This document shows, in pieces, positions 53,987-57,641 of a DNA stretch of 64,000 nucleotides. The notes under the pieces were generated by a model, which was given only the letters and a program-made list of their open reading frames with translations, did not search any database and was not told the DNA's origin. The DNA comes from Acidobacteriota bacterium (lineage in GTDB: Bacteria; Acidobacteriota; Vicinamibacteria; Vicinamibacterales; UBA2999). The stretch is taken from positions 131,153-195,152 of the forward strand of contig JAEUQR010000005.1 in NCBI GenBank assembly GCA_016789705.1. The letters run 5' to 3'. Position numbers and translations under genes: made by a program. How positions within the stretch are numbered: position 1 is the first letter of the stretch; the number at the start of each line of letters is the position of its first letter.

Positions 53987-54415
53987 ATGGAATGGTGGAT
54001 GTGGCTGGCGGGAGGCTTCGTGCTGCTCGTGGCCGAACTGGTCACGCCGAGCGGCTTCTTCATCATGTTCTTCGGCGTGGGGGCCATCCTGACCGGGGTG
54101 GCGGCCTCGGCCGGCCTCGTGACGGCGCCTGTCACGCAGTGGTTCCTGTTCACCGTGATCTCGGTGTCGAGCCTGCTGCTCTTCCGCGGCAAGATTCAGG
54201 CGCGCGTCGAGCCCGACACGCGGCCGCCGGTCGATTCACTCGTGGGCGAAATCGCCCTTCCCGTCGAGGCGATGGCGCCGGGCGCCGTCGGCCGGGTGGC
54301 GCTGCGCGGCTCGAACTGGGAAGCGAGAAACGAAGGCGACACCGCGCTCGGCGCGAATCAACGCTGCCGGGTGACGCGGGTGTCGGGATTACAGCTCGGC
54401 GTCGTCGCCGAGTAA
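53987..54415 (+). CDS. NfeD family membrane protein
   Basis: The 142-residue short NfeD has an N-terminal set of three or four helices (MEWWMWLAGGFVLLVAELVTPSGFFIMFFGVGAIL) and a C-terminal OB-fold with ALPVEAMAPGAVGRVALRGSNWEA. It lacks the ClpP-like serine protease domain of long forms. NfeD proteins work with the SPFH protein encoded next (16 nt downstream), a conserved pair linked to membrane microdomains. Start chosen at 53987 for the MEWW family N-terminus. Confidence 0.9.
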   Translation: MEWWMWLAGGFVLLVAELVTPSGFFIMFFGVGAILTGVAASAGLVTAPVTQWFLFTVISVSSLLLFRGKIQARVEPDTRPPVDSLVGEIALPVEAMAPGAVGRVALRGSNWEARNEGDTALGANQRCRVTRVSGLQLGVVAE

Positions 54416-54430
54416 CGAAGGACACGACCC

Positions 54431-55369
54431 ATGGAAGGCGGATTCATCGTCATCGTGCTGCTCGCGATCATGGCGCTCATCGTCATCGCCAAGACCGCCA
54501 TCGTCGTACCGCAGCAGAGCGCGTTCGTCGTCGAGCGGCTGGGCCGCTATTCCGGCACGCTCGACGCCGGCTTCCACATCCTGCTGCCGTTCGTGGACGT
54601 CATCCGCTACAGGCACTCGCTCAAGGAAGCGGCGCTCGACATCCCCGCCCAGGTCTGCATCACCCGCGACAACGTGCAGGTGGGTGTGGACGGTGTGCTC
54701 TATCTCAAGATCTTGAACCCCGAGCGCGCGAGCTACGGCATCCAGGACTACCTCTTCGCCATCTCGCAGCTCGCCCAGACGACGCTGCGTTCGGAAGTCG
54801 GCAAGATCGATCTCGACCGCACCTTCGAGGAACGCACCAACATCAACATCGCCGTCGTCGCCGAGCTCGACAAGGCCAGCGAGCCGTGGGGCGTGAAGGT
54901 GCTCCGCTACGAGATCAAGAACATCACGCCGCCGGCCGACGTGCTCGCGGCCATGGAAAAGCAGATGCGCGCCGAACGCGAAAAGCGCGCCGTGATCCTG
55001 ACGTCCGAGGGCCAGCGCGACGCCGCGATCAACAGCGCCGAAGGCGAAAAGCAGCAGACCATCAAGGCGTCGGAAGCGCGCAAGCAGCAGCAGATCAACG
55101 AGGCCGAAGGCCAGGCGGCGGCCATCCTCGCCGTGGCCACGGCCACGGCTGAAGGCATCAAGCGGGTGGCCGAAGCCACGCAGGCGCCCGGCGGCCAGGA
55201 GGCGATTCAGTTGCGCGTCGCCGAGCAGTACATCGGCGAGTTCGGCAAGGTCATCAACAACGCCGACACGATCATCCTGCCGAGCAACGTGGCCGACGTC
55301 GCCTCGATGATCACGACCGCGATGTCGGTCGTGAGCCAGCAGACCCCGTCGGCGCAGGTGCGGCGCTAG
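54431..55369 (+). CDS. SPFH/band 7 family protein (stomatin/QmcA-like)
   Basis: The 312 residues have one N-terminal hydrophobic helix, the SPFH domain (AFVVERLGRYSGTLDAGFHILLPFVD, SLKEAALDIPAQ) and a helical C-terminal region rich in Ala/Glu/Lys (AEREKRAVILTSEGQRDAAINSAEGEKQ split by short gaps), matching QmcA/stomatin proteins. GAAGGA stands about 9 nt before the ATG. Its TAG stop and that of convergent ridA share the tetranucleotide CTAG. Confidence 0.92.
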   Translation: MEGGFIVIVLLAIMALIVIAKTAIVVPQQSAFVVERLGRYSGTLDAGFHILLPFVDVIRYRHSLKEAALDIPAQVCITRDNVQVGVDGVLYLKILNPERASYGIQDYLFAISQLAQTTLRSEVGKIDLDRTFEERTNINIAVVAELDKASEPWGVKVLRYEIKNITPPADVLAAMEKQMRAEREKRAVILTSEGQRDAAINSAEGEKQQTIKASEARKQQQINEAEGQAAAILAVATATAEGIKRVAEATQAPGGQEAIQLRVAEQYIGEFGKVINNADTIILPSNVADVASMITTAMSVVSQQTPSAQVRR

Positions 55370-55758
55370 GGCACGTAGGCGATGCAGTCGATCTCGACGC
55401 GCAGCCCCTTGCCGGGCAGCTTCGCGGCCTGGATCGTCGTGCGCGCCGGGCGGTGATCGCCGAACATCCGCTGGTAGACGGCGTTCATCTCCTGGAAGTC
55501 GTCCATGTCCACGAGAAAGACGCCGCAGCGCAGCACGTGCTGCAGGTCGGTGCCGGCCGCGGCGAGAATTGCCGCCACGTTCTTCAAGCACTGTTCGGTC
55601 TGGGCGGCCGCGGTGTGCCCAGCCAGCTCGCCGGTGGCAGGATCGGTGGCGCCCTGGCCCGAGACGAAGACGAGGCGCTCGAAGCCCATGCCGGGCGAGT
55701 ACGGGCCCACGGGTTTCGGCAGGTTGGCGGCGTGCACGGGACGATGCGACTGGGACAT
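55366..55758 (-). CDS. ridA: RidA family enamine/imine deaminase
   Basis: RidA hydrolyses reactive 2-aminoacrylate-type intermediates from PLP enzymes. The 130-residue product has PVGPYSPG at the start, GQGATDPATGEL, and the active-site Arg in RPARTTIQAAKLP with the final VEIDCIAYV. The ATG at 55758 has no Shine-Dalgarno; TAGAAT lies 8 nt upstream. Confidence 0.94.
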   Translation of the reverse strand: MSQSHRPVHAANLPKPVGPYSPGMGFERLVFVSGQGATDPATGELAGHTAAAQTEQCLKNVAAILAAAGTDLQHVLRCGVFLVDMDDFQEMNAVYQRMFGDHRPARTTIQAAKLPGKGLRVEIDCIAYVP

Positions 55759-55765
55759 GGGCTGG

Positions 55766-55772
55766 TATTCTA
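55766..55772. promoter_or_regulatory. Shared bidirectional -10 of ridA and truA
   Basis: TATTCTA gives TATTCT on the plus strand (8 nt before the truA GTG) and TAGAAT on the minus strand (8 nt before the ridA ATG). The gap between the two start codons is only 21 nt, so any -35 contacts would fall inside the opposite coding sequence. Confidence 0.5.
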
Positions 55773-55779
55773 GCCCTGC

Positions 55780-56565
55780 GTGCCACGATTCAAACTCACC
55801 ATCGAGTACGCCGGCACGCGCTACAGCGGCTGGCAGGCCCAGCGGAACGCGCGGACGGTCCAGGGCGAACTGAACCGCGCCATCGTCGAGGCGATCGGCG
55901 ACGGCGCGCTCGTCGACTCCCAGGGCTCCGGGCGCACCGACGCCGGCGTGCATGCGCTGGCGCAGGTCGCGCACATCGACGTCACCCGCGCGCCCGCGCC
56001 GGAGCAGTTGCGGCGGCGTATCAACGACGGCCTCCCCGCCGACATCCACGTCATCGACGTCACGCCCGTGAGCCGTGGATTCCACGCGCGGCACAGCGCC
56101 GAGCGGCGCAGCTATCTCTACCAGATCTCGCGGCGGCGCAGTGCCTTCGCAAAGCCGTTCGTGTGGTGGGTCAAGGAGCCGCTCGAGGCCAGCCGGATGA
56201 CGGCGGCGGCGGCCCGCTTCACCGGGCTCCACGACTTCCGCGCCTTTTCGGACGACGACCCGCGCGAGAAGTCGACCAAAGTGCTGCTCGACGAGGTGAC
56301 GATCGCCGAGGATGGCGCGCTGCTGCTCGTGCGCGTGGCCGGCTCGCACTTCCTATGGAAGATGGTGCGGCGGATGGTGGGCGTATTCGTCGCCATCGGC
56401 ACGGGCGACCTCGTGGACGACGACATCCCGTACCTGCTCGCCGGTGACGGTGGCGACGTCGTCGCGCAACTCACCGCGCCGTCGGCCGGGCTCTTCCTCG
56501 AGCACGTGCTCTATCCCGGCGACGCGTGGCCTCGGCCGATCGTGGCGGCCGTGCCCGTGCGTTGA
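55780..56565 (+). CDS. truA: tRNA pseudouridine(38-40) synthase TruA
   Basis: TruA makes pseudouridine at tRNA positions 38-40. The 261 residues begin with FKLTIEYAGTRYSGWQ and hold the catalytic Asp54 in GRTDAGVHALAQVAH, then YLYQI and FLWKMVRRMVG. The length is typical. The GTG at 55780 lacks a Shine-Dalgarno. Confidence 0.95.
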   Translation: MPRFKLTIEYAGTRYSGWQAQRNARTVQGELNRAIVEAIGDGALVDSQGSGRTDAGVHALAQVAHIDVTRAPAPEQLRRRINDGLPADIHVIDVTPVSRGFHARHSAERRSYLYQISRRRSAFAKPFVWWVKEPLEASRMTAAAARFTGLHDFRAFSDDDPREKSTKVLLDEVTIAEDGALLLVRVAGSHFLWKMVRRMVGVFVAIGTGDLVDDDIPYLLAGDGGDVVAQLTAPSAGLFLEHVLYPGDAWPRPIVAAVPVR

Positions 56566-56585
56566 GCGCGGGGACACTCGCCCAG

Positions 56586-57587
56586 CTACGCGCGTCGCGT
56601 CGTGTCGCGGCCGAGGCGGGCGTCCACGGCGGCGCGGATCCGCCGGGCATCGTCGTGCACCAGCGGGCCGTGCGTGTCCACCCCGCGCCAGCTCCACGGC
56701 CAGGCGCCGGCATAGCCCAGGGCGACGGCCTCCTCGGCGAGCCGCACGGCCGAGATTGCCGGCCGGTGTCGCGACAGGTCCTCGGCATCGCCGCGGGCCG
56801 AACACTCGCCGATGACAATAGGCCGCGTCAGACCGAGCGCGCCTGCCGGCGTCGCCAGCAGGTCGAAGTCGTGGTCGGGGTCGTAGTACGTGTGCGCCTG
56901 CAGGAAGTCGAGTCCGAATGCGGGATCGTCCCACCAGGACACAAAGCGCAGCCGCGCGTTGCCGATCGTGACGGCGCCGGCGCGTTGCTCGCGCACCGTC
57001 GCACTGGCCGCCCGCACCCACGCGGCCAGCACGTCGAACGGAACCGGCGCCGGGACGCGACGGTTCGGATGGTGTTCCGCGACGATCCAGTCGGGTTCGT
57101 TCAGCAGATCCCAGGCGAACACGGCGGGGCCGAGATGGCCGTGCGAGCCCCGCGCGCCGTAGCGGGCGAAGAGCGGAGTGATGACGCACTCGAGCAGCCG
57201 CGCCTGCCCTTCCGGGTCGGCGAGCCAGGCGTAGTGGCCGCCCACGCGGGCGCCGCCGGTCTCGGTGGGCGCGAAGACGAGCGTGTGGTCGAAGAGCACG
57301 GGCACCACGCGGAGGCCGGCGTCGAGCGCGAGCGTGAAGAGCGCGTCGAGGTCGTCGAGAGCGCCGTCGAGAAAGCCGGCCGGCCAGCCCTGCGCGTCCA
57401 CCCGTAGCCCGCCGCGCGCGTCCGTGAAGAGGAACCAGCGCACCACGTCCACGCCGGCCGCCGCCATGGCGGCGAAGTCGCCGGCAATCGCGGCGTGGTC
57501 GGCGCGAACGCCGTGTGTCGTCCCCCAGATGGTCGGGCCGAAGTCGCCGCCGTAACGCCGCCACGGGTAATTGACGCCTGCCGTCAT
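56586..57587 (-). CDS. Glycoside hydrolase family 5-like (beta/alpha)8 enzyme
   Basis: The product has about 333 residues and no signal peptide. VNYPWRRYGGDFG opens a TIM barrel; WDLLNEPD supplies the likely acid/base Glu and VIGECSARG the likely nucleophile Glu, the clan GH-A pattern. Specificity (mannanase-like or other) cannot be told. I chose ATG 57587, which has GACAAT 6 nt upstream; an in-frame start at 57638 is possible. It converges with truA. Confidence 0.78.
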   Translation of the reverse strand: MTAGVNYPWRRYGGDFGPTIWGTTHGVRADHAAIAGDFAAMAAAGVDVVRWFLFTDARGGLRVDAQGWPAGFLDGALDDLDALFTLALDAGLRVVPVLFDHTLVFAPTETGGARVGGHYAWLADPEGQARLLECVITPLFARYGARGSHGHLGPAVFAWDLLNEPDWIVAEHHPNRRVPAPVPFDVLAAWVRAASATVREQRAGAVTIGNARLRFVSWWDDPAFGLDFLQAHTYYDPDHDFDLLATPAGALGLTRPIVIGECSARGDAEDLSRHRPAISAVRLAEEAVALGYAGAWPWSWRGVDTHGPLVHDDARRIRAAVDARLGRDTTRRA

Positions 57588-57593
57588 CCCTGC

Positions 57594-57599
57594 ATTGTC
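57594..57599 (-). promoter_or_regulatory. Possible -10 of a leaderless GH5-like transcript
   Basis: GACAAT on the minus strand ends 6 nt before the ATG at 57587. It deviates at two positions from TATAAT, including the first T, so it is weaker than the other examples. Confidence 0.3.
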
Positions 57600-57641
57600 G
57601 CTTACCGCCCTACCGCCCTGTCGCGGCGGGCGGGTCACGGG

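Follow-up and report, generated by a model that had tools for sequence, protein, structure and literature searches.

Can a gap of 21 bp between two divergent genes hold a promoter for each of them? The question is raised by ridA and truA, which lie back to back in the window, the 64,000-nt stretch of DNA analysed here. RidA is an imine/enamine hydrolase and TruA is a tRNA modification enzyme; we know of no functional link between them, and none is needed. We consider it probable, at roughly 0.7, that the gap is a bidirectional promoter in which one core would produce two leaderless or near-leaderless mRNAs. A second TruA paralogue, ~40% identical, is encoded elsewhere in the window's genome (G000:C119:48843-49622, locus L002) and in most relatives.

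Geometry of the ridA-truA gap

The ridA start codon, ATG, appears as CAT on the plus strand at 55756-55758, and the truA GTG occupies 55780-55782. The layout is divergent, with ridA on the minus strand and truA on the plus strand, at a distance of 22 bp from start codon to start codon. On direct reading, the separation between the ridA ATG (55758) and the truA GTG (55780) is exactly the 21 bp reported by the first-pass annotation (55759-55779, GGGCTGGTATTCTAGCCCTGC). Our home-made gene caller had put the ridA start at 55737, not 55758, and the upstream start is supported by a homologous ATG in two relatives (G001 and G002) that is preceded, a few nucleotides off, by a Shine-Dalgarno-like motif of the GAGGAG/GAGGAG type. 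The truA start is supported by family orthologues that align from their first codons (GTG or ATG). Features of the region are collected in the table.

Table. Coordinates of features at the ridA-truA locus (positions in the window)
Feature	Position	Strand	Remarks
ridA, Rid family detoxifying hydrolase	55366..55758	-	TIGR00004 129.9 bits, cut-off 106.25; PF01042
truA, tRNA pseudouridine 38-40 synthase	55780..56565	+	TIGR00071 175.3 bits, cut-off 142.85
Putative bidirectional promoter	55759..55779	.	7 + TANNNTA + 7; same length in G003 and G004
Symmetric core TATTCTA	55766..55772	.	two putative -10 hexamers with one-base offset; invariant across the genus's five genomes
Putative truA -10 hexamer TATTCT	55766..55771	+	8 nt before GTG; TANNNT 6-9 nt upstream in many truA genes of the family
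Putative ridA -10 hexamer TAGAAT	55767..55772	-	8 nt before ATG
Putative extended -10 (TGn) of truA, TGG	55763..55765	+	immediately 5' of TATTCT
Weak -35-like TTGAAT inside truA, doubtful	55788..55793	-	15 nt from TAGAAT
Inverted repeat GGGCT-N8-AGCCC, doubtful operator or hairpin	55759..55776	.	overlaps core

The exact middle of the gap is the heptamer TATTCTA, which had been read earlier as TATTCT toward truA and TAGAAT toward ridA, with a distance of 8 nt between each hexamer and its start codon; the coordinates (55766-55771 and 55772-55767) agree with this reading. The heptamer has the TANNNTA symmetry, with reciprocal -11A and -7T, of promoters that share one -10 between two directions, and both genes have a TANNNT at spacer 8, as in a leaderless class that occurs throughout this genome (see below). 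Direct reading of both strands of the gap revealed no Shine-Dalgarno motif. No TTGACA-like hexamer was found at the distance typical of canonical sigma-70 promoters, 16-18 nt further upstream than the -10, and a consensus -35/-10 scan of 54300-57600 returned no sigma-70-like site, which is expected for promoters that lack a -35. The weak TTGAAT lies within truA and is codon-constrained.

A putative leaderless class in the window's genome

Genome statistics were drawn from ~720 kb of stretches sampled from the 5.03-Mb, 199-contig genome (G000, GC ~70%) of a Vicinamibacterales-type acidobacterium whose nearest named hits are Acidobacteria MAGs, using a simple, home-made gene caller that relies on codon usage and is blind to upstream signals, and start calls that were likewise home-made. 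Among 597 starts in this sample, TANNNT peaked just before the gene, with 20, 16 and 14 genes at spacers 6, 7 and 8 over a background of about 2 genes at each position past spacer 20. Under a slightly looser definition of the start, 81 of ~600 genes (~13%) were leaderless candidates, and a Shine-Dalgarno-like motif accompanied only 7/81 of these versus 187/522 of the other genes. No -35 signal was seen in the 81 candidates. The leaderless motif was found at 39/188 (21%) divergent-side genes versus 17/391 (4%) co-directional ones (Fisher 2e-9). From this positional peak, the scarcity of Shine-Dalgarno motifs and the excess on divergent sides, we conclude that putative leaderless promoters are habitual in this genome and often stand back to back. 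The ~13% found here is close to the 13.3% that leaderless genes average over three Acidobacteria genomes (PMC3160421).

The two hexamers of the gap fit this class to different degrees. The ridA TAGAAT is a good match to the genome's leaderless consensus, with GAA the second commonest middle triplet of its leaderless -10s. The truA TATTCT is poor at position 4, where T occurs in only 4% of leaderless -10s, and the TGn that precedes it is found before only 12% of them. Both genes have a spacing of 8, the upper end of a 6-8 peak whose mode in this genome is 6-7.

Conservation of the core and probable loss of a leader

The first-pass annotation had made its proposal depend on conservation of the AT-rich core in relatives. 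The outcome favoured the proposal: TATTCTA is invariant at 7/7 bases in five congeners, with four-fold silent sites only 54-72% identical. The base that serves the minus hexamer alone, A55772, is invariant in the genus, and the TGn before TATTCT is kept in 5/5 congeners as TGG, TGA, TGG, TGC and TGG. The whole gap is identical in the window's genome and G003, and its 21-bp length is also found in G004.

The gaps of G001 and G002 are 62 and 61 bp long and carry the same TATTCTA 8-9 nt before truA. Their leaders are homologous and include a Shine-Dalgarno motif before the ridA ATG, a motif also present in G010. In a concatenated RidA+TruA tree the 21-bp genomes are nested within the Shine-Dalgarno-led ones (nodes 99, 85, 100), and because of this nesting the window's lineage most likely lost ~40 bp between the core and the ridA ATG, bringing TAGAAT beside the ATG. 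Gain of a leader, with 21 bp ancestral in the genus, was set aside, because the leaders of these two genomes are homologous to each other and both genomes are basal. Congeners that keep a Shine-Dalgarno leader on the same core would provide a natural experiment on the leader's contribution.

ridA and truA in other genera

A survey of 43 family genomes and GTDB contigs found ridA and truA as divergent neighbours in four genera (g1, the window's own, and g2, g7 and g11). The 21-bp gap recurs in 5/8 cases in g2, with the core TATCATA in G028 and G063 and TATCATG in G005, G059 and G060. The minus strand of the TATCATG gaps offers CATGAT, or GATAAT at N5, neither of which is a TANNNT. The g2 gap is apparently of separate origin from that of the window's genus.

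All five g11 genomes have TAGAAT or TACAAT-N6-ATG at ridA; the truA element in this genus is TATGAT-N8/9-start, and the two -10s are separate or partly overlapping, with a two-base overlap in the 23-bp gap of G014. Across the family truA often has a TANNNT 6-9 nt upstream, even where ridA is not adjacent, and ridA genes that lack an adjacent truA have TAGAAT or TACAAT at N7-8 in loci L075, L077 and L080. This series of separate, touching and fused elements is as expected if each gene owned a leaderless -10 and the gap shrank to a single core.

Several loci in the survey depart from these patterns. In L077 (CANIII010000004.1), where ridA stands without truA, the hexamers TACAAT and TAAGAT overlap (ATTGTATAAGAT) and face a second possible start, an arrangement that resembles the 23-bp gap of G014. 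In g2, insertions interrupt the 21-bp arrangement in two genomes. That of G035 (L061) consists of 'agttaag' heptamers in tandem, which lie between ridA and the truA -10. In G062 (L065) an extended, nearly perfect inverted repeat (aaggaaccgggttgattttcc ... ggaaaatcaacccggttcctt) takes the place of the usual core region; it might be a small mobile element or a terminator-like hairpin. RidA of G032 (L060), also in g2, keeps an in-frame ATG at the 21-bp position and has a second one 27 nt further in behind GGAGGA, and leaderless and Shine-Dalgarno-led starts may coexist there.

A proposed shared core and its alternatives

On the reading we prefer, RNA polymerase with the housekeeping sigma factor would bind the core in either orientation, one at a time, and melt the same heptamer, using TATTCT for truA and the one-base-offset TAGAAT for ridA. 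The weaker truA hexamer would be backed by the TGn extended -10, and ridA would have the better hexamer. Each mRNA would begin at its start codon or within ~2 nt of it, and both would be translated leaderless or nearly so, without a Shine-Dalgarno motif; ridA would have come to this state in the window's lineage by the ~40-bp deletion of its Shine-Dalgarno leader, which left the core intact. With no leader on either side, polymerase orientation would be the main shared control point, and initiation should therefore be mutually exclusive, without effects from a 5' UTR.

Some parts of the original proposal need revision under this mechanism. Its shared two-way core and a leaderless or near-leaderless reading are well supported by comparison. 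Strictly leaderless genes are less secure, since a spacing of 8 combined with the 7-bp rule predicts starts at 55778 and 55760, 18 bp apart, and thus 2-nt leaders. Small shifts of the start, allowed by PMC12825309 and PMC10268837, might make the mRNAs truly leaderless; on the minus strand, the first purine in reach would be A55758, in the ridA ATG. The -35 contacts that had been placed inside the opposite ORF need not matter, as the leaderless class has no -35 signal and truA has a TGn instead. Nor is the gap about as small as a divergent promoter can be: E. coli commonly has divergent start pairs with a distance of only 10 bp (PMC12825309), which makes a still tighter overlap of hexamers conceivable.

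The core could instead belong to one gene only. The poor fourth base of TATTCT and the better match of the ridA hexamer would suit a core used by ridA as TAGAAT, with the truA promoter inside ridA and TATTCT incidental. We consider this unlikely, because in many family members a TANNNT is retained 6-9 nt from truA whatever its neighbour, the TGn is kept in all five congeners, and the consensus scan around the locus was empty. Conversely, truA alone might use the core, with ridA starting inside truA and translated from a leader that has no Shine-Dalgarno motif. The three 21-bp relatives with TATCATG (G005, G059 and G060), which have no minus-strand TANNNT at N6-9, would agree with such an arrangement; the genus-wide invariance of A55772 and the TAGAAT or TACAAT found before ridA, at N6 in g11 and at N7-8 in the three loci without adjacent truA, argue against it, and we regard it as quite improbable.

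Readings that take promoter function out of the gap fare worse. A gap that is mainly an operator, in which GGGCT-N8-AGCCC binds a repressor or forms a hairpin and the promoters lie elsewhere, would draw on 5-bp arms that are reached in 3.4% of shuffles and on G001, where another inverted repeat, of 6 bp, occupies the same register. G002 has disrupted arms, no such arms were seen in the g2 or g11 gaps, and the background is 70% GC; with p ~0.03 and no conservation, the repeat was set aside as an operator, and we give this reading very little credence. The last reading, that a short gap happens to contain an AT-rich 7-mer without promoter function, would be compatible with a 27-mer pattern that alone is unenriched over reversed or AT-swapped controls, yet the invariance of the core amid diverged silent sites, the positional peak of TANNNT and the enrichment at real gene pairs make coincidence scarcely believable.

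Comparison with known promoters

Divergent transcription in E. coli and Salmonella is driven by near-symmetric -10 elements in which -11A and -7T are reciprocal between the two directions, with starts most often 18 bp apart (PMC12825309, PMC10268837). Promoters of this class have mapped starts on opposite strands at distances of 7-25 bp. The ridA-truA gap resembles these shared, symmetric -10 promoters (Warman et al. 2021, via PMC12825309; PMC10268837) in its TANNNTA core, one-base offset and reciprocal -7T/-11A, as well as in its position between divergent genes with predicted starts 18-22 bp apart. It differs in that the ridA and truA start codons sit at the predicted start sites, with no room for leaders. 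Term searches of the E. coli and Salmonella papers (PMC12825309, PMC10268837) found no mention of leaderless genes.

The second likeness is to leaderless genes with an ORF-adjacent -10, as described in the portions of Zheng 2011 (PMC3160421) and of a study of Deinococcus-Thermus (PMC12340547) used here, where TANNNT lies ~6-8 nt before the start and no Shine-Dalgarno motif is present. Genes are treated singly in those portions of PMC3160421 and PMC12340547, whereas here two divergent leaderless genes would share one hexamer pair.

By comparison, then, the view that the ridA-truA gap would be a compact combination of two known kinds is well supported. The divergent ermE/eryCI promoter region of Saccharopolyspora erythraea is likewise compact and yields a leaderless mRNA, although it uses separate promoters, unlike the single TANNNTA core proposed at ridA-truA. 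The gap offers a compact test case, on sequence evidence, that joins two ideas usually studied apart, bidirectional promoters built on -10 symmetry and leaderless translation. Its interest lies in recurrence and in the clean comparison provided by led congeners on the same core.

The same geometry at other gene pairs

The 43 genomes were searched for the 27-mer frame CAY-N7-TANNNTA-N7-RTG, and 26 loci were examined. Coding sequence flanked the frame on both sides at 11/26 loci, four of them ridA-truA and seven unrelated divergent pairs, compared with 0/17 for the control ATNNNAT and 32/575 for a sample of unconstrained frames (Fisher 2e-7). When ridA-truA was excluded, 7/22 loci still had coding sequence on both sides (Fisher 2e-4). 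The unrelated pairs include an aroB-like gene beside one for an FAD-binding protein, a gene of the exonuclease/endonuclease family beside an M14 peptidase gene, and a CMD-family gene beside a DUF4440 gene. Counted alone across the 43 genomes, the 27-mer pattern was not enriched over reversed or AT-swapped controls, and any claim of a module therefore rests on its association with gene pairs.

We see an even chance that these loci represent a minimal module that recurs across the family, in which exactly 21 bp (7 + TANNNTA + 7) between start codons would drive two leaderless genes from one core. Such a module would have arisen repeatedly, at ridA-truA in two genera and at seven unrelated pairs, and at least once the route would have been deletion of a Shine-Dalgarno leader with the core untouched. 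If true, deletions or insertions between the start codon and a fixed two-way core could switch genes between led and leaderless translation.

Within the window's genome itself, a putative core shared by both starts is rare. In the ~720-kb sample, 1/46 TANNNTA sites had called gene starts on both sides, that of ridA-truA, and the same was true of 0/763 sites for three symmetric 7-mers matched in composition. Two copies of the exact 27-mer frame are present in the 5.03-Mb genome, with coding sequence on both sides only at ridA-truA; the second match (contig C178) was rejected, having a real ORF on one side only. Another 21-bp divergent gap is present on contig C91 near position 122050 (L157), where CAC-GCGCCAGTATAAGCTTCAGAG-GTG, with uncertain start calls, has possible leaderless hexamers on both sides.
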